DNA of 64,000 bases, taken from assembly GCA_009746045.1 (NCBI GenBank), contig RPFO01001034.1:466001-530000 (forward strand), given 5' to 3'. This document shows positions 31,676-58,109 of the stretch, in pieces. The translations under genes were made by a program, and so were the position numbers. Positions within the stretch are counted from its first letter, which is position 1. Every line of letters begins with the position of its first letter. The notes under the pieces are model-generated. The model had not been told where the DNA came from and made no database searches. It worked only from the letters and a program-made list of their open reading frames with translations. This DNA is from Mesostigma viride. Lineage: Eukaryota > Streptophyta > Mesostigmatophyceae > Mesostigmatales > Mesostigmataceae.

Positions 31676-34600
31676 ATGAATCCTAGTAATGATGGGTATG
31701 TCTTTTTTTTCTTTTTGAAATTCAACTTTGACATGTTTCATGGTATATGCATAATAGTATGTTCAACTCATCGTGATTTGTGTTTCTTGTGCTCAGCGCA
31801 TCGTGATTTGTGTTTCTTGTGCTCAGCGCATCGTGGATCCTGATGCTGGACACGCCCTTTGTAATATGCACGTCCTTTGTCATGTGCGATATTGATAGGC
31901 TTCATGGCGCAAGCTTCAACCTTGTCAGGGAGCACCAAAACATTTTCTCTGCTCTAGGAAACCTCTTACCCTACCCATACGCCGGCTGCAGCACTACTGG
32001 TAGCCAGCTATCACCCTACCCATACGCCGGCTGCAGCACTACTGGCAGCCAGCCATCACCCGACCCATACGCCGGCTGCAGCACTACTGGCAGCCAGCTA
32101 TCACCCCACCCATACGCCGGCTGCAGCACTAGTGGCAGCCAGCTATCACCCCACCCATACGCCGGCTGCAGCACTAGTGGCAGCCAGCTATCACCCCACC
32201 CATACGCCGGCTGAATTTTTTGCTGCAGCCAGCAATCAGTTTCCACTTGTATCGTCCGTTTCTACTTGCCATGCCTCTTTCGTACCTTTCTCATCCTCAC
32301 CAATGCTATTATTTGTGCTTACATACCTCTTTCGTACCTTTCTCATCCTTACCCATGCTATTATTTGTGCTTGCATACCTCTTTCGTACCTTTCTCATCC
32401 TTCAGGTAAGGATGAATGAAAAAAAAAATAGCATGATGATGCTATTCTTTGTGCTTACATACCTCTCCATTCGATATCCTGTATGGGTGAATCCTCACAG
32501 AGCGGTGCCGTCGGTGGTGACGGGTAACCCCGTTTTGGGGTCCAATGTAGGCCCCCCGGGCAGCTCGCCGCTCAACCTAGGCCCCCTCGCGGTGCCGTTG
32601 GACAGAAACTCCACCTCTGTCTCCGACAGCACAACGCTCGGGACACCTGCCGTGTGGTCCCTGAGCCCTCCCCAGTCGGACCTGCGGGGTTTCCCCGACG
32701 GGGCGGCGCCTGCGTCCGCGATCTTGTACCCACCTGCGACGAGCCGGATGGTGGCGAATGACAGGATGTTGTTCGGACAGATCCCGGCGCCCACGTACGT
32801 TTGTGGTGGTTGCCTGTCTATACGTGTGTGTAGTTGTGTGAGATTGAAACTTGGCCATGTGAGAAACTATTGCTTAGTCATGGTTGCGTTGCGAAGCTGC
32901 AGAGCATGGAACCCACTGGTCACTATATCTGTTGGGCGGTTGCCTTGCAAATCCATGGCATGGAACCCACTGGTCACCATACTGGTCACTATATCTGTTG
33001 GGTGGTTGCCTTGCGAAGCCATGGCATGGAACCCACTGGTCACTATATCTGTTGGGCGGTTGCCTTGCGAAGAGGCACGCTGTTGCGTGTGCGTGCACCT
33101 GTACAAGCGAGGGGTATCCCTTTCGCTCGTGCCGGTCGCTTGGGAGTTGGGAGGACCCAGAATGAATTGGCAGTACCAATCCTGTATACCGTAACTCTCT
33201 TGGTTGTGCCCTACTCACAACATGGTAATTCTGTATACCGAAACTATCTTGGTTGTGCCCTACTCACAACATGGTAATTCTGTAACAGTACCAATCCTGT
33301 ATACCGTAACTATCTTGTATGTGCCCTACTCACAACATGGTAATTCTGTAACTACTGACCGTGCACGCTTAGGTAATGAAGCACATAGCCATGGGTTCAA
33401 TTGTTTGCTCTTTTTTACATGAATGTTTTAAGCTTGTGCTGTGCATGTTTGTTCTGTTTGTTTCTATACCATACGCACCATGCCCCCTCCACGAGCAGAT
33501 GCCTGTACCAACCATGCCCCCTCCGTGAGCAGATGCCCTTGCTGCTGGCATCCTGTACACATGCACGCGTCCTCTGTCGGGTCCTGCCCTTGCTGCTGGC
33601 ATCCTGTACACATGCACGCGTCCTCTGTCGGGTCCTGCCCTTGCTGCTGGCATCCTGTACACATGCACGCGTCCTCTATCGGGTCCTGCTAATCAATAGA
33701 GGGTGCCCTGTGCCCTATGTTATCCGCAGAACACACCTATTTCAGCAGGCATGTACTCATCTATGGGCATATTCTGTTCCTGCTACAGGCATTATACGAG
33801 CACATGCCCCATGCTATACGCGGAGCATGCCTATCTTAACACACTATGTTCTGTGTGCTATTCCTTTTTGTTGGTATTCCTGACTCGTTCCTCGTGCAGG
33901 TGCCCCATGCTATACGCGGAGCATGCCCAGAACGGCCGCCGCGTGGCCGTGGAAGCGCTGCCCTTTGAGTACTTGGATCTTGTAGTAGAGAACCATATAG
34001 TGACCTCCTTTGTAACCGTCAAGGCCGCCTGGCGCTACGGCGCCCACATCGGCGCGGGGCAGGAGGGATACCTGGGCAACACCCTGCTCGCGGTTCCGTT
34101 CCAAAAGGCAAGCTTTTGTTCCCCTTCAGCTTGGGTGGCTGTGTGTGTGCCTCAGTGGATGCCTTGGCATTTCCACCAGGTCGGCGCCCACCGTTTGCTT
34201 GGGTGGCCTGGTGTGTGCCTCTGTGGATGCCTTTTTCCACAAGGTCTCCTGCTTGGCTGCGGGTGCCTCTGCATCTCTGCCGAATGGCTGGCACTTTGCT
34301 TTCTTGCCCTCTCAGCGTCAGCTGCTGCCACTGCCACCACCAGCCCTGCCCTTGTCTGGAACATTCGTGGCAATAGATTGGTGGCAATAGATTGGTGGCA
34401 ATAGATTGGTGGCAGTAGATTGGTGGCAATAGATTGGTGGCAATAGATTGGTGGCAATAGATTGGGGGCAATAGATTGGTGGCAATAGATTGTGGCAATA
34501 CGTGAATGGCATATTTTCACCCATGCTGCCATCGCCACCACCACACAAGGACAGTGGCACATCCTGTGCCATTGCTAAGGCAACTGCCTCCTACACAGTG

Positions 34601-37600
34601 GCCATGGCCATTGCTACTGCCATGGCCTTTGCCTTAACCAGTGATTGTCAGCTACAGCTTCGCATGGTGGTAAATTTATGGGAGTATCACACAAAGCCAA
34701 GTTTTGGGTATGTGATGGGCAACCTTCTCCTTCCTGTATGCTGCCCGTTGCTTTCGACGTGCTTTCCTAAACCCTAAACCCTAAACCCTTCATCCCCCAT
34801 CCCCCTCTTGTCATGGACATTTTGATTGACTGCCGTCTCCTCGCCAAATATGCACACGCCGTTTGCGCCCACGCACTGACGCACTCACGCACCCTGCACC
34901 CACACACATCTCATCCCGTGCACACCCAAACCTCCCCGCCCGTACAGGCGACGCTGACGGATGTGTTTGTGGAAGACCAAGACGCTGACAGCTGCTACAC
35001 GACCGCCATCATATCCACTGCGGAGGCCGCGGAGCTCAACGTGATGCAGAAGCCAGCCAGAAACGGCAGCGGTGCCGTCAACAGCAGTAGCGGGGCTAGC
35101 CCCACAGGCGACGGCGACGGCGCCACGGGTTCGCCTGAGCAACTGGAGCAACAAGCGGAGCTGGCATCATTGCTGCCGCATAGCCCGGAACTGTTCAAGA
35201 TGATCATACCTGACGTACGTCTCTGGCACCCTCGTATAGAAGCACCCGTGTGTGCCCTGCCCCCTTCATGCATCGCTCCCTTGGGTACCTTCCCGTGAGG
35301 GCTCCCCTCCTTAGAGCGCCTTTCCCCCCCCGTCTTTACCCACTCTCCCTTTGTCCCTTGCCTCTTCTCCCTGTCGTCTCCCCTTCCCTGAAAGCCCTCA
35401 TCCTCATTGCACGTTTCTGCGAGGCAAACCTGTCATCTGGAGCGATATACGTATGGGAGTGATACATATGGGAATTGGGAGTGATACATATGGGAGAAGC
35501 GAGGTCGTTATTAAAATCCCCCCTTTTCCTGTGGTACCCATTCTCAGGACCCTACCAATGTGTGACCCCAAGGCCCGCAGTGCGAGCCGCGTGGGCCTTG
35601 CGCCATGGACAGTTGATTCTTCGATCCACCCACCTGCCTGCACGTTGATACGTCATTAACCTGCCTGCACGGGTCTAAGTCATGACCTGCCTGCACATTT
35701 TGTAAGCCATAACCTGCTTGCACATTTCTAAGTCATCGTGCTTCTTTCTGCCCCTGCAGTCGCCCTGTGGCTCGCAGTGCAGACGGGCGGACGCTGTGGC
35801 TCACAGCGCATCTTGACCCTTTCTAATCCCACAACCTGCCTCTCTTTGCACTAGTTGACTGCCCTCTAGTTGACTCCTCTAGTTGACTCTCATATTGAGG
35901 CCCTCTTCCACCCCTACCTGTGATCGTTCCGACTCCTATTGAGACCCTCTACCACCCATACCTGTTATCGTTCCGACTCCTATTGAGACCCTCTACCACC
36001 CCTACCTGTTGTCGTTCCGACTCCTATTGAGACCCTCTACCACCCCTACCTGTTGTCGTTCCGACTCCTATTGAGACCCTCTACCACCCCTACCTGTTAT
36101 CGTTCCGACTGCCAGCAGTGCAAATCGGGAGGCCTGCTGACCGTGACCATCTCCTGGTTCCGTTTCACCCATCCACCCATCCACCCACCGACCACCCACC
36201 CACCCACCCACCCGCCCGCCCGCCCGCCCGCCCGCCCACCCACCCACCCACCCACCCACCTACCCTGACCTTCTTGACTTGATTCGCTCCCATGTCGACT
36301 CCTTTGCCCACAGTGCAAGCCCGGCGGGCTGCTCACAGTGACCATCTCCTGGTTCCAGCCGCTCGAGTTCACGCGCGGTTGGTACGCGTCCCGCGTGGCG
36401 CTGGCCATCCCGCGCAACTGCTACCCTCCTGACCGCGTCGCAGTCAGCCAGTTTGTGACCGTGCGGGCGGTCATCACCACGCCCCTGGACGAGCCGGTCA
36501 CCTACCTGGGGGACAGCCACCCCATGAAGGTGGGCAGGCCATGCTTGCTTCTCAAGCTCATGTTGGTTTCGTATCGTTTCGTGAGACACAGCTCACCTTA
36601 CCTGGGGGACAGCCACCCCATGAAGTGGGCTGTGGGCGCCCGCGAATGTCGCTCGGAGGCTTGTAGTTGGGATGAAGGAATAAACGGTCACGTACCTGCG
36701 GGACAGCCACCCCGTGAAGGTGTGGGGAAATATACCTAGTATGGTAGCATGTGTGTCAAGTGTGTGTAGTCCCTTTTTAGTAGGGACTGGGGTTGGGTTT
36801 AGTGTGGAAGGGAGAGTGTAGGATGAGGGAGAGAGTGGTCAGCGACTTGGGGGCCAGCTACTCCGTAAGAGTGGGCAGGGCATGCGATCCCGTTCGGTTC
36901 AGATGGCACACTAGAGTTTAGGTCAAGCGCTTGAGGGACAGCTACCCGTTTAGGTCAAGTGCTTGAGGGACAGCTACCCGTTTAGGTCAAGTGCTTGAGG
37001 GACAGCTACCCGTTTAGGTCAAGCGCTTGAGGGACATCTACCCGATGAAGGTCGGCCGTGGGTGGGATTTGGTGGGTCGTAAACCCTGTATTGCATCGAT
37101 ATGAGACCCTAAATCCTGCTACCCTCGTATTGCATCGATATGAGACCCTAAATCCTGCTACCCTCCTATTGCATCGATATGAGACCCTAAATCCTGCTAC
37201 CCTCCTATTGCATCGATATGAGAACCCAAATCCTTAACCGAACGGGGGACAGGCGCCCAAGGTGGGCATCCCATGCCATCCGTTCAAGCTTTGTTTTCGG
37301 CTTCCTATGGTCCTGTTTGCCATGGTTTGCTCCGATTGGCATCATATGGTTCTGTTGACCATGGTACGTCTGGGGGGCAGTCACCCCAGGAAGGTGGGGC
37401 CGGTTAGGACTTGGTGTTTGGGGGATGAAGGGGAAGAGCGGCCCCATTTGGGGGGAACAGCCACCCATGAAGGTGGGCACCGCACGGCAGCCAGTCTGAT
37501 TTGACGTAGATGCAACCCGCAGAAAATGCACTTTTGCTCGGTTACCTGGCTCTAGTCCCATGCGACCAAAGAGGGGGTAATCAGATGGTAATGGAATAAG

Positions 37601-40600
37601 GTAGTCACCAGGTGGTAATCAGATGGTAATCGAAATAAGGTGGTAACCAGGTGGTAATGAATAAGGACGCTTCCTCTGCTTTTACACGTTAACCTTGCTA
37701 GGTCATTACCTGCGGGGTCCCCATCCATGGTTCCTAACTATGCTCCCTAACTATGCTTCCTAACTATGCTCCCTAACTATGCTCCCTAACTATGCTCCCT
37801 AACTATGGCCCCTAACCATGGTCCCCAACTACTGCCCTATCTGTGTGGTAACTATCCCTAACTACGGTCACTTTCCATGCATCGATTGCCCACGCCACAG
37901 GTCATGAGCAGCCTACATGGCCGCATCGAACTGATCGTTGACAACGGCGTCGAGTGGAAGAACCAGGACTTCGTCATCGCCCACGCAGTAAGGGCGAGCT
38001 GAAAGAATCCTGATCGCTTTGTTAATTGCCATCTGGTGGTACATGAGAGCTGTTGTACTAACTGCTGTTTGAGACTCTGTCATCGCCCACTAGGTGAGGC
38101 CTTTCTTGATCATCCTGTTGCGACTGTTTCTGGCTGTCAGTTGTCTGGGGGGTTGTAGGCTGCAGAACCAGGACATCGTAATCGCCCACACTGCGACTCT
38201 TCGTTCCGCCACCATGATGTCGCGCTGTTCTCCTCCTGTTTGGGGGAGTGCCTGTTGTTTGAAGTATGGGTAGACTAGCAGAATCAGGAGTTTGTGATTG
38301 CCCATGCAGGATGCGGTGACGTATTCACTGCGCCGTGTTCACCCGCAGGCTGCTCGTTTCCACCCGCTTGCAAGTGCTTTTCGTTGCTTGTGGGACTTGC
38401 AAGTGCTTGTGGGACTTGATGTTGGTGGGGAGAAAAGAAATGTCTCTATCTTGGTATTTTTGCTTGAGGGGCGTCATGTTTGGGGTACTGTAGGTGTTTT
38501 AAATGGCTCTTTGTTGGTTGGCGGTTTGTAAGTTCATGGCGAGGTGGTTGAACTGGCAGAACCAGGACTCCGTGATCACCCACGCGGACGAATTCTTTTT
38601 CTATTATTTGCCTCTATCACATCTGTTTGTCCATTGCTGGTGGTGGCTTTACAGAGCACCTTCGGCCAAGGCTACACTTGAAGTGCTATCAGTGATTTTT
38701 ACACGAGCAAACCTTTCCCGCAAAGTGACTGCCAAACAACTGAATCAAAGCTCTTCTCTCTCTCCCCCCCAAACCCCAAACCCTTCTCCCCACCACCACC
38801 ACATACAAACACAATATTCACCCTCCCTTCCCCCCTCCTCCCCTGCCCCCCCCCCCCGCCCTTGGCTCTGTCAGGTGTGGTCCGAAGGCATAGTCGGCGC
38901 GGCCAACTTTGAGCGTGCCATGGCCGCCTCCGGCATGGACTCCCGCGACTCCCTGTGCATCTCCCTGGCACCCCCCAGCCCCAACCATGCCACCGTGAGT
39001 CCCCTCCCATGTACACGCACGTTGCCCCTCAAGCCCCTCCCCCCCATGTAGACGCGCAAGGGCCTTTTCCCCCATGTGCACACACAAGGCCCTTTCGTCC
39101 GCTAGAGCGCCCGCCTTTAATACTGCGCCACTGCGCTACTGTACTGTTTGCTGCTCTGAGCTGTCAATGGCATGTGAGGTCCCACCTGCTTGATCTGCGA
39201 CCATCATTGCAAGTGTCCCTCAGTCCCTGCATACTGCACAGCGCAGTATATGGTTTAGGGTTTGTCCCTGCGTGTATGATTTTCATCCTTTCACGGCATA
39301 TATGTTTCTGCATATAGATGGTTTTCATCCGATCGCTGCCAGTCCTTTCGTCCTGTGGCTAGGATCCCTATCGTTTGGCCACCAGTCGCTATCTCATGGC
39401 AACCGCTCCTACTATATCCATGTATTTGATCCCAGCATGATTCGGCTGTTTTGGCGATCACATGGCCAGATATCGCTACCTCGTGGCTAGCAATCCCTGC
39501 CGCATGGATGTTCGTCCCTATCTTGTGGCTACCAGTCCTAATCCCGTGCAACATATTCACAATCCAATCCTCTTCACATTTAATGAGGGATTGCCTGGCG
39601 AAGCCGAAGAGGACCTGCGTCCCAACCTCATGGCTATGCTCCCTATCTCATGACCAAGGGTCACTATACCATGGCTGTTGGTCACTGTACGTTGCTTCCC
39701 CCTCCGGTGCAGACCTTTCCTCGCTCCGTCATCTTCCTGGTCGACCGCTCCGGGTCGATGGACGGAGCACCGATGCAGTACGCCAACGAAGCGCTCGTCA
39801 CCGCCCTGCGCTCGCTCACGGTAACCGCTTGTGATATGTATCGGAACTGTAAAAGTGGCGGTGTGCTTGCTTGTGGTAACTATGATACACTATACTCCCA
39901 GTACTATACTATTGCTTGTGGTAACTATGATGTACTATACTCCTAGTACTATACTATTGCTTGTGGTGACTACGGTGTACTATACCCCTAGCCAAATGTT
40001 CATTTACTGTGTTGGGAGCATAAAAATGGTGCTGCGATTTAGCATTGTAGGTATAATTCTGGCACCCTTGCACAAGGAGTGCGACTGCCTTGCCTTGGTA
40101 GGCTGTGGAAAGCTCGGACGTTGCATGCTGGCGGAGGCTTTGCGTTCAAATTGATGGGGTTGTACCACGGGTAGCACCCCTTCAACCGTAGGAGCTTGTC
40201 GGAACGTCCCCGACAAGGCCTTAGGCCTTTGGACGCAATTTCGCAAAGGCCTGCAAATGCTGTGTGGTAGGGCTGTTAAGCTGTCAGCAAAGGTCGGGCC
40301 TTGGGCTTAAGTTGGCAGTGCTTTCGATCATCACCTGTTTAAGGCGTTCTCAGTGTCACATGCTTGTGCGCTCCAATCAAGGGTGACGGAAGCTGTTAAG
40401 ATGCACAGGTTAGGGCGTGTTGGCGGACTTTGCTTTTTAGGCTTGGATCAGCTAGCCCATGGTGTGTGGGCGGAGGTATACTGACAGCAGGCGTGGCGAC
40501 ATTGCTCACGGCAGTGGCAGGCCAATACCCACCTCAATGAGGGCAACATGAATGGGACAGCTCTTGTCAATAAGGGCATCATGCATAGGACAGGACTCGG

Positions 40601-43600
40601 GAAGATTGGCTTCCATCCACCCCCCCACCCATTCACCCTCGCACCTGTCGACCCGCTTTCGCTCTCACATGGTTTTTATGTTTATGAAACATAATTTAGT
40701 TTTCTGCTGGTGCCTAGCGACCTGCCTGCTCAGCTAACTATTACCCGACCCCCGTGCACAGTATCCTTCTGCTGCCTCCGCAACCGTGCGACACGGTCAA
40801 CCTACCTACCACGTGACCCCCTCATCCCCCTCCCTTGAAGCATTTTACTTGGAATTCTTGTGCTGGCGCACCAGCCTCGCATCGTGTTCAACATTCGACC
40901 TACCTACCATCTGACCCTCCCATCCCTTTGTTTTTTCTTTGAATTCTTGTGCTGGCGCACCAGCCTCGCATCGTGTTCAACATTTGACCTACCTACCACC
41001 TGACCCTCCCATCCCTTTGTTTTTTGTTTGAATTCTTGTGCTGGCGCACCAGCCGCGTGACGTGTTCAACATCATCGCGTTTGACCACGAGCAGGCAGCG
41101 TTCTCAGGGCGGATGGCGGAAGCCAGCGCGGCCAACGTGGACACAGCGACGCAGTGGGTGGCCGAGACGTGCGTCGCAAGGGGTCTGACCGACATCCTCA
41201 CACCGATGGAGCAGGTGGGTGCTTAACAGCAACGTACTACCTCCGACGGGGGGCGTGTGCTTGCCTTGCAACATTATCGCAAGCAAGGGTTGCCTTGCAA
41301 CGCCGTAGATAATGCGTTTGCAGAATGAGCCTTAGGCGACGTTATCGCAAGCAAGGCGGAGAGGGGTTTGCCTTGCAAAATCGTAGTGTGCTTGCGCATT
41401 GAGCTGTGTGTTTTTTACCATCTATGCGCCCATGGAGCAGGTGGGTGATTTTACCGGTGTAGCTGACGCGATGGAGCACGTGGGTACAAATTAAATAACA
41501 TAAACTGTGTATGCACATTAAGGGGAGGGTCCCATAGAAATATATCAAAACTTACCCCCCCTAATAACTACAGAAATGCAACTGACAACCACTGAATGAT
41601 GTTTGGGGACCATAAACATGATGTTTGGGCATGCATACCACCACTTGTTGGGGGTACTACCCCCAGCCATACACCGGCTATGAGCTAAAAATAGAAAAAA
41701 ACGCTGTCCGGGGCACATCTTGCCCAGAACAGTGGGAGAACCAGTTGCATGAAAAAAGCACACCCCATATAAAAATGTCATGGGACATTGTTTCTACCTA
41801 ATTGGATCAACAAAATCAGCACATCCCTTTGAGTTATTAATTTTTGGGCCAAAAATACGCTTTTTTAGGCGGGGCGTCCCCATACACACTCATAACACAT
41901 CAATTAGGCCTGAAAAGCACAAGTCAAATTCTGTCATGACCATAGAAGGCACTGTCAAAGTTTGGTGGCATTCTGAGCTCAGCTGTAGCAGTTATTAATT
42001 TTGGCAGTTGGCCACCTGTGCAGACGCTAAGGAAGGCATTAGTGAGTATTAAGGCACACTAACACTTCCTATGCCATCCAAAAGGCTCCTGACCATGCCC
42101 AATTCGACCACAATGTACAAGGAGGTGGCTGGGCACGTCATGTGCCCTTGCCTTACCTCGACACGGGCAACCTGTTGCGTGTGTGCACAACAATGAGGCA
42201 GGTAGCTCTACATGCCTAGCCAACACTTCTAAAGCATATTCCAGGTTTATGGTGTGGGCATCATCCCAAAACCAAGCTCAAACACACCCTAGAAAGCCAT
42301 ATCCACTAATTGCCCAACAAGGGTAACAACAGACAGTCCACAGAGAAAGCAGAATTATCATACATGCTGCTTGCCAAGGCTTCTTACCATGGTTACCTTG
42401 CCTTGCTAGCATATGAATTAGGGCTCTCCCATTTTAGTGGGAGAAAGGCCAACAAGACAACGATAACCCCTACCTACGTGCAGTTCCACCCATGCAGTAT
42501 GCCCCTCAGAAAAACCACTGCCACCTTTCTTTCCAGCGCAATTGTTTGCCAAGAAACAAACTCAAGCTTGTGAGCCTCTAACCACAATGAAGCCTCTGCT
42601 AAGAAAGGCCGCGTCAATATTCACACAAAACTGAGTGCTGTTAGCAATCTCCTTCCAAGAAACCACTCAGCAAATCCCTGACAACTTGACGATATGCCAC
42701 GGTCACGCTTTGACACATCCCAGCCATGCAACGTACATAAAAACCACTGAAAGGTGCCAGGAATCTGGCGATGCGCAGCACGGAATGGCATTATACCTGG
42801 CGCTAACTGCACGGAAAGAAGCCGAAAACTTGCGTTGATAACCCATAAAGGAAGCGAAACATTCATAGGGTCACGTTGATCACACGATCGTACCATTACC
42901 GGAATTGTCCTTCGCCCAGCGGCGCAAGAAAGAACAACCTTCCATGGAATAATAAGACGCGCATCCCGCGAGCCTGGAGAGTGTCTTACCGATCATGACG
43001 GAAATCTTGCCGAAACCCAGCAAATTTTTTAAAGCTTTACCAATAACGATTTAAACGCATCCTTGACGCTAGGTAAAGCCCATAAAACCTGACAATCACC
43101 GCCGCCAGCGTGCATTCTAATTTATTCCTCTCGACGAAAACATCAGATTGGACCCCCGTGGCGATGGTCATCAGTAAAATCATCGACACTGCAAAAAACG
43201 CGAACTCCGCTACGAGGTAGTATCATTTACTCATCGTCTTTAAGATTCGCTCAGTTTCTCTGCATTCCGCAAGCTATCTTTTTCTACTCTGCCTGAAAGC
43301 ACGTCGCCATGGCCAGCTCCGGTAGGGGTGCGCGCACCGTGCACCACTTTTTCACGGTACGGACGGGTACCGCGAATTTTTCGGCGCCAAAATATTCGCG
43401 CCGGGACCGTCCCCTTAAATAACGTATTAACATAAAGCATTAAATTATTCATGGATGACGCACTGGTGGGTATAAAGCACTCAAGCGCAGTGGAGATGTG
43501 TGACTCTGCTCTGCTCTTGCATGCGGAGCAGGTGGGTTTGAATAGCCAAGCTTCTTGAAACAGGTGCGTTTGTGCTGGCGTGCGGAACAGCAACTTGTCT

Positions 43601-43985
43601 GCTCGTGGGGCAAGTAGCCAGGGGAAAGAAGCGGGGGGCAAGTAGTGCAGGTCTCACGTTGCGGGAAATGACCCTGCCTGCCTTTGTGATCACCCTTATC
43701 ATCACATAATCGTTATAAGTATTCATATCCTTGCATGTAGAGCTGCCATATCCCCTGTTTTGTAACCCCCTTCTGTGCTCAGGCCACGGCGGCGCTTCCC
43801 CTTCACGATACCTCCACTCAGTTTAGTCTTAAAAGCAATTGAAAGCACGTGACCGCGTAGCATGGGTACCGATACAGGAATCCTTCAACCCTTATATACA
43901 ACGAGGAGGAAGGGGCTCGCTAGCCTCTCTCTCTTCTCTTATACTGCCTCAAGTGGGCAGGCCACACACCTCAGCTCACAGTAGC

Positions 43986-44019
<34 letters not shown>

Positions 44020-47000
44020 GTGCCATGTTTTGATATCTTGCGTCGGCCACCCACCTCAGCTCACAGCACCTTGTGTGTGCGTGTGTGCCATGTTTTGATA
44101 TGTTGCGTCGGCCACCCACCTCAGCTCACAGTAGCTTGTGTGTGTGTGTGTGTGTGTGTGTGCCATGTTTTGATATCTTGCGTCGACCACCCACCTCAGC
44201 TCACAGTAGCTTGTGTGTGTGTGTGTGTGTGTGTGTGCCATGTTTTGATATCTTGTGTCGGCCACCCACCTCAGCTCACAGTAGCTTGTGTGTGTGCGTG
44301 CCATGTTTTGAGATCTTGCGTCGGCCACCCACCTCAGGCCATGGCCATGCTGCAAGACCCAGAGGCACCCACGCCCCAGGGCTCCGTCCCCTACATCTTC
44401 CTCATCACCGATGGCGCGGTCGAGAATGAGCGGCACATCTGCCACGTGGTCATGCAGCGGCTGGCGGCCAACCAGGGCTGGACCCAGAGCCCCTACGGCA
44501 CAGCGCCGCGAATCTCCACGTTTGGCATCGGTGTGTGCGTGCAAGCGGATTTTTTTTTGTTACCATTTTCTTATATTACTTATAACTTTCATAGTGTTAT
44601 TTGTGCCAGGAGCCAATATGGCATAGCGCCGCGCATTTGGCATCGGGAGTCGAGTCCAATTGCCGAAATATTGTTTTAGCATTGTGCAATAAGTTTCTCT
44701 CAACAGCCCCCGCATTGCGTCGCGTAGCTTTACATCCGTGTGTGCATGTGGTGGGCTCGTAAGGTACTGCCCGGGTTGAATGCTAACGTTAGTATTAGCT
44801 TGTTCCATGATCCCTTAGGGCACTATGCCCAGTATTCCTGCGTTTCGCACCGGTGTGTGAGGATTTCGTCTTTAGTTTTCCCAGCCTACTTAATTCCTTG
44901 TGTAACGTTGCATCTTTTAGTTTGTTTCATCTCAGCCAATGCTTTGCTCTCATCGTCTATTCAACCTGCGCTCGGGGTCTATTCTACCTGCTCTCGGGGA
45001 CTTAACTACCTGCTCTCTATCTTAGTGCTTGTTGATCTTTGCATAAAATCATACTACTGGAAGTAATTTTTTTGTGGGGGGGGTGTAAGAGTCTCCATGA
45101 ATGTCTACCTTAATGCAGTAGTTTCTTTGACTGTTTCCCTCTACCTGACCCGTGCTCACCACGACACCTGCCCCTTTGGCCGCGTGCGCGATCGCCCGAG
45201 TGCTATCCCGCGAGCAGGCCAGCGGTGTAACTACTACTTCCTGAAGATTCTCGCGGAGAAGGGCCGCGGCCTGAGCGATGTCGCCTTCACCAACGACCGC
45301 CTCCGCATGCAGATGGATGGCCTCCTCCTGGCCGCCGCCACGCCCGTTGTGACCGACATCACTGTGAAGGGGCTGCCCCACGATGCGGAGCTTTACCCTT
45401 CCCCGCCCCCCGACCTGTTCGTGGGCGCGCCAGTGGTGATCGCGGGCAAGTACCGAGGGGTGCTCCCGCCGACGCTCGCGGTGGAGGGGCGCATGCCAGG
45501 GGGGGGCGTGTGGCGCAGCGAGGTGAGTCGTGACGTGTGCCATGAATCGTGGCTTGTCATGACTTTACACCCATTCACTCCCAAGGATCTTCGGTCTTTA
45601 TTGGAGCAAGAAAGGGACTGGGCCATCCTTAATGAGAGGCAAGGCTGAACCGAAAAAAACTTGGGGGAAACTTACTGAATAATAGGCTGGGAGGAACTTA
45701 GGACAAAATGATGCACTTAAATTTTATGAGAGCGTGCTTCCTTATCATGCGCATAAAGAAGGCGGGGGTGGGGAAAGGGGGGGTGGGGAAGGGGGGTTGT
45801 GGAAGGGGTTTGTGGTAGGAGGGTATGAAAGGGGAGTATGGAAGGGGGGGATGGAAGGGGGGTGAAGGGGGTTATGGAAGGGGGTTTGAGGCAGGGGGTC
45901 AAGGAACGTGGGTTGTTGTCAAAGGGCTTTTTATTTACATCCCGTTCATGGGAAGCATTGTTTGCTCTTGGGTTGTGGTGTCAATGGGAGTTTCAAACTG
46001 GGATTAATGGGTATACCGCATGAGAGCTAAATATAGAGAGTAAATCATGAGAGCTAAATATAGTCCTTCCCCTGGATCCCTCTGCCCTCCATCGTCTGCT
46101 GTCGTTGCGTCGTGGTTGCCCCCCCTGACAGATGGGAGCGCTGCCAGCCCCCTGCATCCCATTGCACAAGGTAGGGGCATTTACTTTGCGTTGATTGCAC
46201 AAGGGAGCGAGGTTCCATGCATTCACCTCTTACCGATCCGCTTGCATGGAAATCCAAAAGATTTTTCGTGAAGACTTGTTTTCAACACCATAGGTCAGGT
46301 TATAACGTTTCTGACCACTACAACAGCTCGCCACTCCCTTTCCCCTCAATTTCTCGTCTTTTCTTTCTGCCTATCCCGCGCCTAACTCTGCCCTCTCTGT
46401 GGCCCCCGTGCGCCTAGGCACACATTCCCAGCACTCACTCTTGATATCAGCGCTGAGATATGCATGCCCCCTAAACGATACACAATAGCCACCAGCTGCC
46501 GACCTTCTCTTCTAATCCCGGCCGTGCGGTTCACGCGCCCAGATTCCATACCTGGCGCATCTGCACCATACTTTGCACCATCTTCGTTGTTTCATGCACC
46601 GTGATGATGTGTCTACGCAGGCGTTCCTGGTAGCAGCAGATCTGTCTGACTTGTCCATCCTTCCCCCACCCCCCCACCCGCTCATGGCGATCCATCACTC
46701 CATTTATTTCTGATGTAGGTGTTCCTGAAGCAGCAGATGGACCTGCTGACCGCCAAGTGCTGGCTGGAGGGTAGCGACTCGCTGCGGGAAAAGGTGAGCC
46801 GTTATTCCCACCAGGGGCACGTGCATAGTTGGAGAGATGGCGCGGTTGTTTCCATGTCGCCGACGAGACCTTGACATCCTATGTTCAATGCCACCAGTCT
46901 ACTTTATGCCCCTAAGTAGCCTTTATGTTATGCTATGCCCTCAAGTATCCTTATGCTTTGCGATGCCCCTAAAATTTCCTTATGTTGTGCTATGCCCCTA

Positions 47001-49260
47001 AGTAGCCTAATGTTATACGTTTATGTTCGCTGCTTTGCACAGCCTAAGTAAAAGTGGCAGGCAGAAACGCGAGCTTTCAATTGATTGGGTCACCACCCAC
47101 CCACTGGTGGATGATCTGAGCATCCCCAGCTCCATCCCCTGCAACGTTTTTTTGAGCAAACAACAAAGTGTCCCTTTAGTGTGCTTCACCGTTACTGGCA
47201 CCCACCACCCGTGTTAAGGCGACAAGCTGAGCATCCGCGAGCCGGCTCCCATCTCATTTGTTATTAGTTATGACACGATAATTGTGTATGAACGGTGTCT
47301 GTTGCCTACCGCCAATAGGTGGCCTGTGAGTTCCCATCTGATTTGTGACTATCGTGCGTCGAATTGTGAAAATGTCGTAAGATCTGATACTTGTGCTTCA
47401 ACTGTTTACTGTCGCGTACTGCCAACAGGGGGAGGAGCTGAGCTCAGCTCTTCCACCTGTCGGTTCCCCTCCGCGAGGGAAGAAAAGAGCAGCCGCAAGT
47501 CGGTGCCCAGTATTTGCTAACAGACATGCGTATTATCTGGTGGTTGCTTCTGTAACTGCTGCTGCCACTCGCAACAGGTGGAGGAGCTGAGCATCCGAGA
47601 GTCCATTCCCAGCGAGTACACGCTCATGGTCAGCTTCAAGACGACGAAAGAGAAAAAGGAGGAGATGAGCCGGGCACGCAGGATGTCGGTACGTGTGTCG
47701 GTAGATACTAAATGTTGGTGCATGGGGGGGAGTGCGGGGGGGGGGGGGGAGGTAACGATGAGGGAAATGGGGTTGGTAATGCATGGGGGGGGTTGCAAGG
47801 AGAACCATGGAGCAGATTACCAACGGTGACGAGAGTGGTGATGGTGGTATGTCGTGGGATATAGTACGGGCAGACCAACATAGGCTGTGTTGCACGTCGT
47901 TAGAGCAGGTGACACTGACGAAGCTGTTTGTACGTGTTGATACATTTGTGCGCTTTTTTTTTTTTTTTAAGCGTGAAGCAGTGGCTGTTCATACGGTGGG
48001 GGTCGGGGGGGCTGGAGGGCAGGACACGGGGGCTGTCCACACGTGGGTGTGGGTAGATGGGGTGGGGAACCGAGTAGTGCCGGCTGCCAGTTCGTGGGTG
48101 TTGTGTGTGTGACCGGGGAGGGACGAGATTGCAGCAGCGTGGGTGTGTTCGTGCAGGGCCAAAAGCTAATTGCACACTCGTGGTTCTCTGAACATAGTTT
48201 CTTTACAGTGAGATGGAAGGGTAGCCGCTATAGCTAGGTTATAGGGTTCACGTGCCATACATTTTTAGGCCACTGCGGCCTGGTCCGGATCGGCAGTGAC
48301 ACAAGATTAGGCCAATTTTTCTGGCCAGGTGGCAGGAGCTACGTTGCGAAATTAAACCTGCCACTTTCTAGCTTTCTTTGTCAATGACGTAGTGATCAAC
48401 TCGATCTAGGTTATTTCCCTCACGCAATATGTCACCTAATAGCCCCGGCAGACTTTTACATAAGCCGCCGGCAGTTGGAACGCCAAATTGCGTCATCTGT
48501 TCAGACGCAAATTTTCGCGGCGAAAAAATGCTGTCCGGGCCAAGGCCGCGTGACACGCAAAAAAGACAAAAACAAACCCACCTAGCTAAGGTCGGGGTCT
48601 TTTCTTTTCCCGCCCACCCTGTCTGCGTGTTTGGGGGGTAAGGCTTGCCTTTGACAAGCAATAAGTGTTCCCATGAGCATCGGCGGCCGGAATGTGGCCT
48701 GCCTTCTGCATGTGCTCCACTCATTGTCTTAATAAAGAGTCTGGTTACCCTGGAGTTCCACAGTTAATAGAAATACCATATCAGTATGCTTCATCCGTGT
48801 GCACACATACCTCCTCAGACGTATATCAGCACCACCGCGACTCCTCGCGAAGGTGACCCCCTGGGGGTTGGGGCCACTTTTTGCAACAAAGCAAACAACA
48901 TAAGCTAACAAAATTTACCTTGGTTAGCTCAATGTCATATTTGTTTGCCACCCACCCTCGCCCCCGTCCCCCCATCAGGGCAAGAATGTAAAACTTGCAT
49001 CCGCCATCCTCGGCGGTGCCGGCGCCGTCCTGCTGGTCTCCGGCCTCATGGTTGGGTTTGGCAGTGTTGGCGATTCCGCTGTTGCTGTGGGAGGGGCCGC
49101 GGTCACTGTGGGCGAGGCGGTGGGGTCGGCTGCGGTGCAGGGCGGCGACTCTGGGGGTGGGGGGGATGACAACTGCTGCGATGACTGCGGCGACGGCTGC
49201 AAGGACTGTGATGGCTTGGGCGAAGGCTGCGGCGATTGCATAGCCGCTGGTTGTTTCTAA
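31676..49260 (+). CDS. VIT and von Willebrand factor A domain protein, 14 exons
   Basis: Exons: 31676-31695, 32501-32794, 33900-34107, 34948-35214, 36314-36529, 37901-37987, 38875-38994, 39713-39820, 41053-41214, 44338-44530, 45218-45522, 46719-46793, 47578-47688, 48979-49260. They sum to 816 codons with stop and every join keeps frame. The VIT domain lies in exons 3-5 (VENHIVTSFVTVKAAWRYGA, LTVTISW). The vWA domain lies in exons 8-11 with a complete MIDAS-type DRSGS (D415, S417, S419), FLITDG (D519) and TFGIG followed by CNYYFLKILA. A helical part (LLTAKCWLEG, PSEYTLMV) follows, then a glycine-rich segment and a tail with 8 Cys in 29 residues. This order matches plant VIT/vWA proteins of about 750 residues; the cellular role is not known to me. 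Intron 3 has a GC donor (AAG|GCAAGC). Ten of 13 introns are phase 0. Exon 1 (7 codons) is the least certain; further 5' exons are possible. Introns are packed with minisatellites and copies of exon edges. Confidence 0.9.
31770..32214. repeat. two minisatellites in VIT/vWA intron 1
   Basis: A 30-bp unit (CATCGTGATTTGTGTTTCTT plus GTGCTCAGCG) lies at about 31770-31840. A 45-bp unit (CCCATACGCCGGCTGCAGCA and on), about 5.5 copies, lies at 31970-32214 and stays open in two frames. Confidence 0.9.
32885..33690. repeat. three minisatellites in VIT/vWA intron 2
   Basis: Units: CATGGAACCCACTGGTCACT type, 3-4 copies, 32900-33070; CAATCCTGTATACCGTAACT type, 3 copies, 33175-33355; a 54-bp unit with GCTGCTGGCATCCTGTACAC, 3 copies, 33537-33690. 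Confidence 0.88.
33710..33833 (+). repeat. two echoes of the start of exon 3
   Basis: 33805-33831 is identical over 27 bases to the exon 3 start at 33901-33927. 33710-33740 is an older copy that reads CPMLSAEHTY where the exon reads CPMLYAEHAQ; five codons differ only by synonymous changes. Confidence 0.85.
34366..34495. repeat. 14-bp minisatellite, about 9 copies (VIT/vWA intron 3)
   Basis: The unit GTGGCAATAGATTG is repeated head to tail with rare variants. Confidence 0.92.
34766..34790. repeat. interstitial plant-type telomere-like repeat
   Basis: Three and a half CCCTAAA units lie in intron 3, a short tract that need not mean a chromosome end. Confidence 0.85.
35620..36262. repeat. minisatellites in VIT/vWA intron 4
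   Basis: A unit of about 32 bp with ACCTGCCTGCAC, 4 copies, 35625-35735. A 45-bp unit with TATTGAGACCCTCTACCACC, 4-5 copies, 35890-36110. A (CCCA/CCCG)n run at 36176-36262. Confidence 0.9.
36116..36161 (+). repeat. echo of the exon 5 acceptor and start
   Basis: CAG then 43 bases aligning with 36311-36356. It translates CKSGGLLTVTISWF against exon CKPGGLLTVTISWF; five differing codons are synonymous. The copied block includes the acceptor CAG, so it could act as an alternative acceptor. Confidence 0.88.
36599..37480 (+). repeat. serial echoes of the exon 5 donor edge, and minisatellites (intron 5)
   Basis: The true edge is GGGGACAGCCACCCCATGAA then G|GTGGGC at 36509-36535. Echoes lie at about 36599-36632, 36690-36725, 36842-36890, 37369-37400 and 37447-37478. 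A 34-bp array (GCTTGAGGGACAGCTACCCG) at 36920-37040 looks like a further amplified echo. A separate 39-bp unit (CATCGATATGAGACCCTAAA) lies at 37090-37225. Confidence 0.8.
37561..37850. repeat. GGTAAT-rich and 17-bp repeats in VIT/vWA intron 5
   Basis: Degenerate AGATGGTAATCGAAATAAGG units at 37561-37665; CTCCCTAACTATGCTTC type, about 6 copies, 37731-37830. Confidence 0.8.
38066..38587 (+). repeat. four echoes of the exon 6 donor edge (intron 6)
   Basis: The true edge at 37955-37987 encodes KNQDFVIAHA. Echoes: about 38075-38096 (DSVIAH then stop), 38160-38197 (QNQDIVIAHT), 38279-38310 (QNQEFVIAHA) and 38552-38585 (QNQDSVITHA). In the third copy nearly all nucleotide differences are synonymous. 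Confidence 0.85.
39290..39990. repeat. degenerate repeats in VIT/vWA introns 7 and 8
   Basis: A decayed unit of roughly 30 bp (CATGGCTA, CAGTCC, TATC motifs) spans 39300-39700 before exon 8. After exon 8 a 45-bp unit (ACTATACTCCCAGTACTATA), 3 copies, lies at 39880-39990. Confidence 0.65.
40770..41000 (+). repeat. two to three echoes of the exon 9 acceptor edge (intron 8)
   Basis: AATTCTTGTGCTGGCGCACC then AGCC precedes exon 9 at 41030-41053. The same block plus coding-like CTCGCATCGTGTTCAACATT occurs at about 40852-40905 and 40938-40990. An older, weaker copy lies near 40785. The copied acceptors are intact CAG. Confidence 0.88.
41424..41486 (+). repeat. two echoes of the exon 9 donor edge (intron 9)
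   Basis: CCCATGGAGCAG|GTGGGTGA (41431-41450) and GCGATGGAGCAC|GTGGGTAC (about 41468-41487) copy the true edge CCGATGGAGCAG|GTGGGTGC at 41203-41222. Confidence 0.8.
41522..43414. mobile_element. non-autonomous TIR DNA transposon with TTAA flanks, copy 2, in VIT/vWA intron 9
   Basis: TTAA at 41518-41521 and 43415-43418 brackets ends GGGGAGGGTCCC and, reverse complemented, GGGGACGGTCCC (11 of 12). It is related to 22421-24900 at both ends; the middle has diverged or been deleted. No transposase is recognised. The right end is CpG-rich with TTTTTCGGCGCC and TTCGCGCC. Confidence 0.72.
43960..44342 (+). repeat. five-copy array with TG runs and the exon 10 acceptor
   Basis: Units of about 65-78 bp: CCATGTTTTGATATCTTGCG, TCGGCCACCCACCTCAG, then CTCACAGTAGCTTG and a (TG)n run. 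The last unit ends in the true acceptor CACCTCAG|GCCATGG of exon 10 (44338). So the acceptor region has been amplified; each copy holds an intact CAG. Confidence 0.9.
44608..44655 (+). repeat. echo of the exon 10 donor edge (intron 10)
   Basis: AGCCAATATGGCATAGCGCC then GCGCATTTGGCATCGGGAG copies 44489-44532, with an internal deletion of about 9 bases. Weaker traces may exist near 44710 and 44850. Confidence 0.7.
45740..45900. repeat. GGGG-rich degenerate tract in VIT/vWA intron 11
   Basis: Repeated GGGGAAGG and GTATGGAAGGGG words; no coding meaning. Confidence 0.75.
46612..46650 (+). repeat. echo of the exon 12 acceptor edge (intron 11)
   Basis: CGCAG|GCGTTCCTGGTAGCAGC then AGATCTGTCTGAC copies GTAG|GTGTTCCTGAAGCAGC then AGATGGACCTGCTGAC at 46715-46750, with indels that break the frame. 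Confidence 0.75.
47105..47470 (+). repeat. three to four echoes of the exon 13 acceptor edge (intron 12)
   Basis: The exon starts VEELSIRESIPSEY. Echoes: about 47107-47145 (VDDLSIPSSIP), 47221-47256 (DKLSIREPAPIS), 47317-47342 (decayed) and 47423-47470 (GGGGAGGAGCTGAGCTCAGC). Confidence 0.75.
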
Positions 49261-50724: not shown

Positions 50725-50912
50725 CAGGGGTGTGGGCACCACAGCCCGAGTCGCTATGAATGCCATACGCGGTCACACGCGGAGCCCATGAGAACATGGG
50801 ATGAAATAGATGATGCTGGCTATCTAGTTCCTAGTTACAGGATTGTGGGCACCAGGGCCCGAATCGTTATGAATGCCAAATTAACGCTGTCACACGCGTA
50901 GCCCCCACAGAC

Positions 50913-52451
50913 ATGGGGTTGGTCTCCTTCATCACTACTGTTATGCTGTACAAAAACAAAGGTTCCCCTGACGACCCCGCCAACTACAGAGGAGTCTGCA
51001 TCCAGAGCGCCGCACTTAAGTTGTTCATGCGCATGATCCTCAACCGCCTTCGTTCTGCTCTCGACTGTCACCTTGGGGAAAGTCAAATGGGCTTCCGTCC
51101 TGGGCGCAACACCGTCATGGCCATCTTCGTCGCGCGTCGCCTCTTCGAGGAAATCGCTCTCCTGCAACCTGGTGAGTTTCCCGCCATCCTGATCTTCGTC
51201 GACTTCATCAAGGCTTTTGATTCTGTCCTCTGGGACGCTCTATGGGCTGTACTTGCTCGCGCTCGCGTCCCCACTCCCCTGATTACCGTCATCCGCACGC
51301 TGTATGAGGGGTCCACCACTTCGGTGCGCACTCAGCACGGCATAACCCCGCCCTGCCCACTGCAGACCGGCGTCTGGCAGGGTTGCGTCCTGTCGCCGTA
51401 CCTGTTTATTATTGTAGTGGATTATGTTATGCGCCAGGCACGTGCTCGCTTTGCTAGCATTGCAGGCCGTGCCCCTGGCCTAGCGATCACGAACGAGCTT
51501 GGGGAAGGGGGGCCGACTAACAAGCAGAATTTACTAGCTGACCTCATTTATGCCGACGACATCACGCTCATCGAGAAGCCGGAGTCTGCCCAACTTTGGC
51601 TGGACTGCCTGGCGCTCGAGGCTCGGGCGGTTGGTCTAGAAATCAGCCCCAAAACGGAGGCCCTGGCCCTCGGCATGGCAGGGCCCCCACCCACACTCCG
51701 CCTCTTAGACGATGCCGAGGTCAACTACCCTACTTCAGGCCGCTTCAAGCTGCTCGGCAGTTGGCTTCCTGACTGCGAGGACGACATGACGACACGGATC
51801 GGCATGGCGTGGGCGCACCTCCATGACCACCGCCGCTGGTGGAGCAACCCCGCCCTACCCCGGATCGTCAAGCGTGACCTCTTCAAGGTCGTCATTCTGA
51901 CGATCCTGACCTACGGCGCCGAGACGTGGACACTGATGCAGGAGCTGGAGCAACGACTCGACGGCGCCGTCACCAAGATGCTGCGCAAGGCCCTTAACAT
52001 CCCCTTTGGTTTGCACATTAGTAATGAGGATTTGTACGCTGATTTGCCCTATGTTTCCCACATTATTAGGCACAGGCGCCTGGGCCTAGCCGGGCACCTG
52101 GCCCGCACAGATCAGGTAGATACATCAGATAGACTAGCTGGCACCAAGCCCGCCCAGCCTGGGCGATATGTCCTCACCTGGCGTGCCCCCGGCCGCGCGC
52201 GGCAGGGCCGCCACCCGTGGACTTTTCGTGATAGACTCGGCATGGACATGTGCTACACTAGACGTGACGGGCTCACCCCCGGGCAGCCTCCTGGTTTGTC
52301 TGTAATATGGAGGCAGATGGTGCGCAAGGATAGATGGCAAGTAGTGATGAAGGAGACCACCCCCAAGCCTGTGGGGGCTCCGCGTGTGACCAAGTATGGC
52401 ATTCATAGCGATTCGGGCCGCGGTGCCCACACCCCTGTAACTAGGACCTAG
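50913..52451 (+). CDS. non-LTR retrotransposon reverse transcriptase, 5'-truncated, open
   Basis: The 512-residue frame carries RT motifs FVDFIKAFDSV (catalytic D97), GVWQGCVLSPYLF (153-165) and LIYADDITLI (D215, D216), then the thumb/C-terminal region with YGAETWTLMQELEQRLDGAV and HRRLGLAGHLARTDQVDT. The first nine codons (50913-50939) belong to the older LINE on the other strand, so this start is an accident of insertion. The element's own coding sequence begins inside the RT at codon 10, lacking the endonuclease and RT motif 0, so it cannot be autonomous. It has no stop or frameshift and is the youngest-looking copy here. RNase H and CCHC finger are not seen. Confidence 0.9.
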   Translation: MGLVSFITTVMLYKNKGSPDDPANYRGVCIQSAALKLFMRMILNRLRSALDCHLGESQMGFRPGRNTVMAIFVARRLFEEIALLQPGEFPAILIFVDFIKAFDSVLWDALWAVLARARVPTPLITVIRTLYEGSTTSVRTQHGITPPCPLQTGVWQGCVLSPYLFIIVVDYVMRQARARFASIAGRAPGLAITNELGEGGPTNKQNLLADLIYADDITLIEKPESAQLWLDCLALEARAVGLEISPKTEALALGMAGPPPTLRLLDDAEVNYPTSGRFKLLGSWLPDCEDDMTTRIGMAWAHLHDHRRWWSNPALPRIVKRDLFKVVILTILTYGAETWTLMQELEQRLDGAVTKMLRKALNIPFGLHISNEDLYADLPYVSHIIRHRRLGLAGHLARTDQVDTSDRLAGTKPAQPGRYVLTWRAPGRARQGRHPWTFRDRLGMDMCYTRRDGLTPGQPPGLSVIWRQMVRKDRWQVVMKETTPKPVGAPRVTKYGIHSDSGRGAHTPVTRT

Positions 52452-55310: not shown

Positions 55311-56519
55311 AGGATAGTCACTAGAGGGGGATATAATCCTCATCTGATGAGCTGTCCTCTACTGTAATGGCAGACGAGGCGGTAGTGTAGCGGCTATCCT
55401 CCGACGGAGGGGCAATAACCTCCACCTGCGAACTTCCATACCCTGCATTATAGCGATGATATCTTCGAGCGGTGCCTTGTGACAGTCTGCCGCCCGGGAC
55501 GTGATTAATTAATAATGTTGGATGTAATTTATACTTCCAACAGCTGGCTGGGGTACCCACCCCCCTGATTGCTGTCATATCCGCACGTTGTATAATAAGG
55601 GGTCGACCACGTACTTCGGTCCGCACTCAACACGCCATTACTGACCCCGCCATGTCCACTGCAGACCGGCGTCTGGCAAGTAAGTATAAGTAAGTGCGTG
55701 AACATGCACTGAAGGCAAGCCACGGAGTTCCCAATTAGGTACTTTTCTACGCGGATCGATACTTTGAACACCCGAGAAGGCAAGCACGGCGCGACTCACT
55801 CGCCCAGGTCTGGATTACGTCGCAGATATATCTATAGCAACTTCGCGTCATCCGGACTATCCATGACAACTGTATGCAGCCTCAGCCAATGATGATGACG
55901 GGTGTGGGGAGTAAATTAGTTAATTAAGTAATTAGTTTATAGTTAAGAACATACCTCCATGGGGAGGGTATGTAACACATATCCCTTCGAAGGGGCACAT
56001 GGTTTTTAACATGTGCATCCTAGCTAGGCGACAACCTGCAGTTGCACTTCTGTACGCGTATTTGAGTGCCACTCAAATACAGTGCCGACAGCTGATATCT
56101 CAGTAGAGTATTAGTTTTGACATTGGGATATAGTAGTATACCGATAGGTCTGAGGATGCGGACGGCGCGGCTTTCTACTCCCCCAACCACCGCCCTGACA
56201 TCGTAGTTTCTGGACTTTGAGGGAGGCGGCCGGCACTTGCTCATTGACGTTTCTGTGGCTCGCCCGGGCTTGGCTCTTTGCGCCCATGTGGTTTGTAACG
56301 GCTTCCCCGCTGGGTGACGCATGAAAAATGGCTGACGGCGGTATGGCTGCCGGCGGAGCTCAGATCTTTTGCGTCTGAGCCCCAAATTCAGTCAGATTAC
56401 TTGCATTCGATGCGCCTTTTAAAGACGCACCCGCCAGTATAATCGGTTACGACTAAAACGCAGTATTGACAACGTTACGCACGTGACAAGCAGCTATTAC
56501 GACTCCAAAAGCCAAGCGA
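55311..56519. other. LINE scraps; otherwise unrecognised
   Basis: 55545-55685 (+) is an RT scrap (VPTPLIAVI, TSVRTQHAIT, TADRRLA). 55949-55973 is a family 3 tail on the minus strand with lower arms ACATAC/GTATGT. A minus frame ending near 55321 (ITVEDSSSDEDYIPL) is of unknown origin. 56020-56385 (-) is an unrecognised 121-residue frame. Confidence 0.5.
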
Positions 56520-56522
56520 GGT

Positions 56523-57905: not shown

Positions 57906-58109
57906 ATAGCTTGAATAGCCCTAGCTTGTATCCATTGGTAGTCACTGCCGCCATGGCAGCCATGCATGCCTAGAATGTTTGCCTAGCTGTGCCATACCTA
58001 GCCACGTGCACCGCCAACACACGGTACGCCACCAGCCATAGCCTTAGCTTAGTCCTTGTACAGCCATGCTACGTCCTGGCTATGCTCAGATTACTTGCCC
58101 ACGCTCCTT

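Follow-up and report, generated by a model that had tools for sequence, protein, structure and literature searches.

Worn copies of exon edges in the introns of a VIT/vWA gene and of other genes of Mesostigma viride

The introns of a 15-exon VIT/vWA gene of Mesostigma viride were found to contain copies of the exon edges that they adjoin, and such copies were also found in other genes of the same assembly. The copies are local, touch the exon–intron border and decay neutrally. The gene lies in nuclear DNA, in a stretch of 64,000 nt (the window; contig RPFO01001034.1). In the main test, each border was searched with 50 exon and 6 intron letters under stricter scoring and compared with 400 dinucleotide shuffles. 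According to this test, 9 of the 28 exon–intron borders of the VIT/vWA gene scored above all 400 shuffles (p = 0.0025), where 0.07 would be expected, so that the similarity was clearly above chance. An earlier note on this DNA had named ten borders with edge copies. Nine of these were recovered, each at p = 0.0025. At the tenth, the start of exon 10, the array repeats intron letters only and stops at the border, and the exon edge itself gave p = 0.17. Table 1 lists the features.

The joined protein of the 15 exons showed 98% identity over the full length to the EukProt entry jgi/Mesvir1 Mv02046-RA, and the sole disagreement was exon 12. In the spliced alignment with Mv02046-RA, 12 of the 14 model introns were exact, and the two introns around exon 12 were fused into one. 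Homologues retained residues matching this exon, which may therefore either have been overlooked by the Mesvir1 annotation or be skipped in some transcripts. With a Bryopsis homologue (41% identity) as the guide, exon 12 was recovered with its start displaced by 6 nt; one spurious intron and displaced borders of exons 9 and 10 were also produced, and hence trust in such homologue-guided models is limited. The intron at the end of exon 3 was of the GC–AG type (AAG/GCAAGC at 34101–34113). Exons 12 and 13 of the earlier note correspond to exons 13 and 14 of this model.

The remainder of the window was also surveyed. The ABCG gene matched Mv02044-RA. A Pfam scan of 10 open reading frames between 5 and 31 kb gave no family; in a second Pfam scan of 10 open reading frames, three matched (ABC transporter parts and reverse transcriptase) and seven were without any family. 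One Rfam scan and one tRNA scan returned nothing, and a flanking-locus scan gave an RZ zinc finger and a HECT match under its cut-off. A reverse transcriptase domain (PF00078) was encoded by the open frame at 50835–52451, and similar broken pieces continued to approximately 55300, as judged by eye. By eye, two near-copies of one frame were present at 56500–59850; the second was interrupted at approximately 58890–59380 by a TTTCGCACG-rich stretch that has inverted ends. At 61519–64000, AGGGGA six-base repeats extended over more than 1 kb upstream of an open frame that, from its motifs, appears to encode a protein kinase.

Table 1. Exons, edge copies and arrays of the VIT/vWA gene (positions in the window).
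Feature	Position	Strand	Basis
VIT/vWA gene, 15 exons, 828 aa	31676–49260	+	exon model, spliced alignment
Exon 3, GC donor at end	33900–34107	+	exon model, spliced alignment
Exon 5	36314–36529	+	exon model, spliced alignment
Exon 6	37901–37987	+	exon model, spliced alignment
Exon 12, 39 nt, in-frame, skipped by Mesvir1 model	46132–46170	+	supported by homologues
Exon 3 start copy, 79%	33710–33733	+	border search
Exon 3 start copy, 91%	33797–33831	+	border search
Tandem unit spanning the end of exon 3, displaced 72 nt from the real border	34171–34241	+	repeat comparison
Exon 5 start copy, weak, 79%	35573–35596	+	border search
Exon 5 start copy, 46 nt, 85%	36116–36161	+	border search
Exon 5 end copy with donor, 95%	36593–36630	+	border search
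Exon 5 end copy with donor, 92%	36685–36722	+	border search
Exon 5 end copy, 76%	36837–36878	+	border search
32-nt array, unit a worn exon 5 end copy	36916–37044	+	repeat and border search
Exon 5 end copy, 83%	37028–37056	+	border search
Exon 5 end copy, 79%, some intron flank (p = 0.001)	37244–37268	+	border search, flank test
Exon 5 end copy, 90%	37370–37398	+	border search
Exon 5 end copy, 93%	37452–37479	+	border search
Exon 6 end copy, 89%	38073–38090	+	border search
Exon 6 end copy, 92%	38164–38189	+	border search
Exon 6 end copy, 80%	38280–38309	+	border search
Exon 6 end copy, 88%	38554–38585	+	border search
Intact tandem array of 89-nt units spanning the start of exon 9 (at 41053)	40843–41072	+	repeat and border search
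Exon 9 end copy with donor, 95%, 19 nt aligned	41429–41447	+	border search
Exon 9 end copy with donor, 94%, 17 nt aligned	41469–41485	+	border search
75-nt array ending at exon 10 acceptor, without repeated exon letters	44005–44337	+	repeat search
Exon 10 end copy, 81%	44610–44636	+	border search
Exon 10 end copy with donor, 89%	44841–44859	+	border search
Exon 13 start copy, 87%	46619–46641	+	border search
Exon 14 start copy, 87%	47103–47125	+	border search
Exon 14 start copy, 94%	47225–47241	+	border search
Exon 14 start copy with acceptor, 95%	47423–47443	+	border search

The nine borders were the starts of exons 3, 5, 9, 13 and 14 and the ends of exons 5, 6, 9 and 10. The end of exon 5 was the richest, with seven copies in addition to the array derived from a worn copy, and the end of exon 6 had four. 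The copies at the end of exon 9 were short. Each unit of the 89-nt array at the start of exon 9 included 20 exon letters. The 72-nt unit at the end of exon 3 had only 9 exon letters; its intron part was 80% alike over the aligned columns, and it was more worn. The 75-nt array before exon 10 contains TG runs. The rule that the used splice site is always the outermost one was true by definition, since any copy within an intron lies inside the used site.

Chance and composition were ruled out as the source of the copies by the dinucleotide shuffles and by the mid-exon and wrong-intron controls. Mid-exon queries gave 1 positive of 108 at p ≤ 0.01 (chaperonins 1/62, and 0/62 at p = 0.0025; HSP70 family 0/46). 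When the edges were compared with wrong introns, a score of at least 27 was reached in 2 of 2060 pairs (1/1528 in the VIT/chaperonin set and 1/532 in the HSP70 set). In a laxer test with exon-only 36-nt queries and shuffled introns, six of the 28 VIT borders gave p < 0.01, and for five of the six the score clearly exceeded that of every other intron in the gene. Inverted copies reached p ≤ 0.01 at two of the 28 VIT borders, one of them from a palindrome, as judged by eye. The enrichment of echoes at exon borders, which the earlier note had proposed to examine, depended on the treatment of repeats. With all local repeats counted, the echo fraction was 21% at donors, 36% at acceptors and 26% in the deep intron, and it was 0 from 50 nt into the exons; thus, with the young arrays counted, the exon edges were not clearly in excess over the intron interiors. 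With the arrays masked (score of at least 28), 20% of the VIT edge windows had an echo, compared with 2.9% of the intron-interior windows and none of the 248 exon-interior windows located more than 40 nt from a border. The contrast was smaller for the pooled VIT and chaperonin genes (edge 8.1%, interior 2.1%).

The copies had been considered a feature of one gene, which proved wrong. Chaperonin loci of the same assembly were modelled by spliced alignment (56 introns, 48–74% identity to the references). The p value was 0.0025 at 17 of 112 borders and at most 0.01 at 21 of 112, with part of these borders counted twice because the set includes two versions of CCT8. The two assembled versions (contigs C1641 and C887), with introns 1.4% apart, suggest unmerged haplotypes or a recent duplication in the assembly. 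In 2181 aligned intron sites, 31 substitutions (1.4%) separated the two versions, along with 11 indels, and in CCT8 intron 2 the border of a donor copy was lost through indels in one of the two versions. The HSP70-family loci (26 introns; a few models only 32–45% identical to the references) gave 4 of 49 borders at p ≤ 0.01, all in one DnaK-like gene (contig C1801), where 4 of 8 borders were positive compared with 0 of 41 in the other HSP70 genes (P = 0.0003). A GroEL-like gene (contig C1468) carried an intact young array, in which each 76-nt unit joins 20 exon letters to 56 intron letters. As the earlier note had stated, the RPL11 and ABCG genes of the window showed no such copies at p ≤ 0.01 (0/7 and 0/6 borders, with two RPL11 borders placed one letter off and weak candidates at p = 0.0125 and 0.02). 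In the pooled set, 34 of 202 borders were positive at p ≤ 0.01, with 2 expected. The VIT/vWA gene exceeded the other genes (9/28 versus 25/174, P = 0.03). In the VIT and chaperonin genes, 15 of 69 donors and 10 of 70 acceptors were positive.

A census of the VIT and chaperonin copies with a score of at least 27 gave 48 copies at 25 borders. The copies had 11–44 exon letters and a mean identity of approximately 88%, and 45 of the 48 reached the border within 3 nt. The nearest copy was located 85–250 nt from the border at 21 of the 25 borders (range 48–446 nt), and the median distance was 123 nt for the VIT, chaperonin and DnaK-like genes with the two young arrays left out. The clustering of nearest copies at 85–110 nt was weak (11 of 27, P = 0.04, four of the 27 distances being worked out by hand). 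A minimum distance of 85 nt, which was seen in the VIT/vWA gene only, was rejected according to distances of 48, 59 and 76 nt in chaperonin genes. The nearest copies were closer to the border than uniform placement would give (149 versus 359 nt, 23 borders). Moreover, 44 of the 48 copies were in the intron half adjoining their own border, and none was beyond 69% of the intron length. Evenly spaced families were observed at 85/172/256 nt (CCT5 intron 5), 95/190 nt and 96/190 nt, and 5 of 20 spacings were within 15% of the first (P = 0.015).

The decay of the copies was evaluated by codon position. The mismatch was 11.8%, 11.0% and 17.6% at positions 1, 2 and 3, respectively, and the differences were 21:17:39 in the VIT/vWA gene (four array or low-complexity matches left out) and 42:41:65 in the pooled set. 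An excess at the third position, predicted to be up to twofold, is what a free copy and an exon changing only silently should give; hence, the reading of the copies as translated alternative exons was rejected. The splice dinucleotide was retained in 38 of the 48 copies, and the neutral expectation was a fraction of 0.79. The codon positions and splice dinucleotides of the copies decay as if unselected, and it is unlikely that the copies are functional.

The earlier note had read the copies as tandem duplications across the exon–intron borders. This reading held for a few intact units; in most copies, the intron half was absent or too faint to be distinguished from chance. A tandem unit that crosses the border must carry its intron flank along. 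The search was anchored in the exon, with only 8 intron letters in the query, so exon-rich copies were favoured; the simulations described below used the identical search and share this bias. The intron flank was recognisable in the two young arrays. With these excluded and segments of the same intron as the null, p < 0.05 was found in 1 of 43 flanks at 8–30 nt, and in 0 or 1 of 41 at 30–60 nt in two runs. The likeness of flanks between copies was 1/38 and 2/35 under the same conditions. Under a laxer null that sampled every intron of the gene, p < 0.05 was reached by 8 of the 31 VIT flanks, of which the young array contributed two, and the intron-side identity in the VIT/vWA gene was slightly raised out to approximately 25 nt. 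The idea that the copies were decayed whole units was also rejected: the likeness of the segments lying between copies, in 12 of 37 pairs (p < 0.05) versus letter shuffles, vanished with the same-intron null, and that comparison is relied on for the intact arrays only. In the power test, the true flank was mutated by twice the divergence inferred from the edge and implanted into real introns. The detection was 75–82%, decreasing to 55–63% with heavier indels or substitutions and to 27–36% at 0.5 substitutions per site (8–30 and 30–60 nt). The near flank (8–30 nt) was predicted to reach p < 0.05 in 57–82% of cases at substitution/indel loads up to 0.35/0.12 and in 36% at 0.5/0.175. The flank fraction of the real data was 0.048 (VIT) and 0.083 (pooled).

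Simulations of several duplication modes were compared with these values. Uniform tandem duplication gave flank fractions of 0.11–0.42 in eight settings, the value of 0.11 occurring in one with short units (20–60 nt), and of 0.19–0.64 in 48 settings that measured the flank only and not the spacing. Nine settings with border units of 85–130 nt gave 0.35–0.52; six of these included conversion as a crude form of re-copying, and they left flanks recognisable in 35–50% of copies. Three settings in which short insertions were dispersed yielded no recognisable flanks (fraction 0) and the correct order of magnitude for the edge echoes, with a median nearest copy at 344–430 nt. With small indels added, the eight uniform settings gave flank fractions of 0.17–0.36 and a nearest copy at 48–85 nt; the short-unit settings (up to 70 nt) placed it at 48–50 nt, compared with 123 nt observed. 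With small indels added, the six border-unit settings gave flank fractions of 0.43–0.51, whereas the real fraction was 8%, together with a nearest copy at 96–110 nt and 1.1–1.6 copies per positive border (1.9 observed). None of the simulated settings reproduced the flank deficit and the spacing together. Border units of 75–130 nt came nearest to the data in frequency and spacing. The closest setting (border-crossing units of 75–130 nt, border rate 1, small-indel rate 0.35) gave a border frequency of 0.175 versus 0.179 in the pooled data, a median distance of 110 versus 123 nt, and edge/interior echoes of 0.062/0.022 versus 0.081/0.021.

Local duplication that takes in exon edges certainly happens. 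Either the intron half of a border duplication is lost unusually quickly, or some process copies exon edges specifically. We favour, tentatively and with somewhat less than even confidence, the reading that the copies are non-functional leftovers of border-crossing local duplication, the intron half of which was then lost faster. On this reading, short tracts are duplicated again and again in the introns of this genome, and a unit of approximately 70–110 nt across the border would be duplicated in tandem; a few young cases still show such a unit intact, and for the others it is inferred. The added splice site would fall inside the intron, the outer site would stay in use and the duplication would be tolerated. 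The intron half would turn unrecognisable much faster than the exon-edge half, and our guess is that the edge may persist because the exon, which selection holds fixed, serves as the donor for repeated short re-copying by gene conversion or template switching. The border contact of 45 of the 48 copies, which is required of a border-crossing unit, argues for this reading, as do the young intact units (76 and 89 nt), the similar spacing of the older copies (median 123 nt) and the faint flank signal of the VIT/vWA gene under the all-intron null. The excess of simulated over real flanks (43–51% versus 8%) and the power-test expectation set against 1 of 43 argue against it. If plain neutral tandem duplication across borders were sufficient, the old flanks would have decayed and the edges would be visible since the exon is conserved. 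Locality, border contact, neutral decay and the young intact arrays would all be accounted for, and the large proportion of indels in introns (11, compared with 31 substitutions, in CCT8) and the single short-unit setting with a flank fraction of 0.11, near the real 0.05–0.08, are consistent with it. However, the flank fraction never fell below 0.19 in the 48 settings, and it was 0.35–0.52 in the nine border-unit settings and 0.17–0.51 in the 14 with small indels; units of up to 70 nt placed the nearest copy too close, and 57–82% of near flanks were expected where 1 of 43 was found. This explanation is already strained, and we regard it as improbable.

Edge-specific copying would transfer 15–45 nt of exon edge and a few splice-site letters into the adjacent intron, 50–250 nt away, without a larger unit. 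Anchoring at the splice site would suggest a process linked to splicing or to breakage shortly after the intron is entered. Flank homology beyond 8 nt is at chance once the two young arrays are set aside, in a test that does have power; this, the dispersed-insertion settings and the exon interiors without copies are in its favour. However, the copies are far nearer to the border than uniform insertion would place them, whether calculated (149 versus 359 nt) or simulated, some evenly spaced families fit tandem units, and the VIT flank signal, with identity raised to approximately 25 nt, is not expected from it. We know of no enzyme for such copying, which was also counted against it, and this explanation is considered rather unlikely. 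In the form of a hitherto unrecognised Mesostigma process that copies edge modules into the adjacent intron (approximately 15–45 exon letters and up to approximately 8 splice-site letters, the rest of the intron being left behind), typically placing them approximately 100 nt from the border and perhaps anchored by splicing or by intron breaks close to it, it is a possibility that we hold as doubtful. If true, such a process would seed the introns of many genes with worn splice-site look-alikes. Selection might instead keep the copies because they tune splicing, whether as decoys, as alternative splice sites or as exon-like enhancers: an exon edge with its splice site is what the splicing machinery reads, the edge copies outlast their flanks, and they cluster in some genes (the DnaK-like gene compared with the other HSP70 genes). 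The merely neutral retention of the dinucleotides and the CCT8 donor copy that lost its border in one version make this quite improbable. It is most improbable of all that the copies are scars of intron birth, through exonic tandem duplication (Rogers model) or introner-like elements. The strong differences in echo content between genes are such as genes with new and with old introns might show. However, the copies sit near their own border, not at the far end as birth of the Rogers type predicts; only 3 of 2415 pairs among 70 VIT and chaperonin introns were alike (blastn, E ≤ 1e-5), all between the CCT8 versions, and the edges matched introns of other genes in only 1 of 1528 and 1 of 532 trials. 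Of the proposal in the earlier note that introns may lengthen or arise by this route, lengthening is plausible because every copy adds letters, and the arising of introns is unsupported.

The pattern was compared with known systems. In the potato RdRp gene, a tandem duplication across an intron–exon boundary created a new intron, once and with the intron part intact (PMC4974935). There, as here, the 3′ portion of an intron and the 5′ portion of the exon after it make up the unit; unlike that case, the Mesostigma copies are old, lie within existing introns at many borders of several genes and mostly have no recognisable intron part. Human internal tandem repeats share the location at exon–intron boundaries, vary between recent paralogues and occur with novel introns or alternative splicing; in contrast to Mesostigma, worn copies of the exon edge only are absent from the available part of their description (PMC2812944). 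In Daphnia, direct repeats inside new introns were ascribed to repeated staggered breaks, and a passive route to longer introns was proposed. Direct repeats inside introns are common to both organisms, whereas those of Daphnia lie within young introns and, in the available part of the text, are not described as copies of exon edges (PMC4202315). Intron gain of the Rogers type also leaves exon sequence within an intron by tandem duplication; it would predict the start of the downstream exon at the 5′ end of the intron, and the reverse, whereas the Mesostigma copies are near their own border. A literature search of titles and abstract openings, with few subscription papers, found such copies described neither for Mesostigma nor as a feature of whole genomes.

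Direct evidence on the lengthening of introns, an old question, is scant. An exon fixed by selection provides a standard for counting and dating earlier copying at the edges of introns. Copying of edges without flanks, if real, would involve a new mutational process. Splice-site look-alikes in introns can be frequent and yet non-functional, which calls for caution in their interpretation. The edge-copy pattern is readily testable genome-wide, whichever explanation holds. Simple side-by-side duplication leaves most copies unexplained, and the edge copies in Mesostigma introns may show how introns grow.
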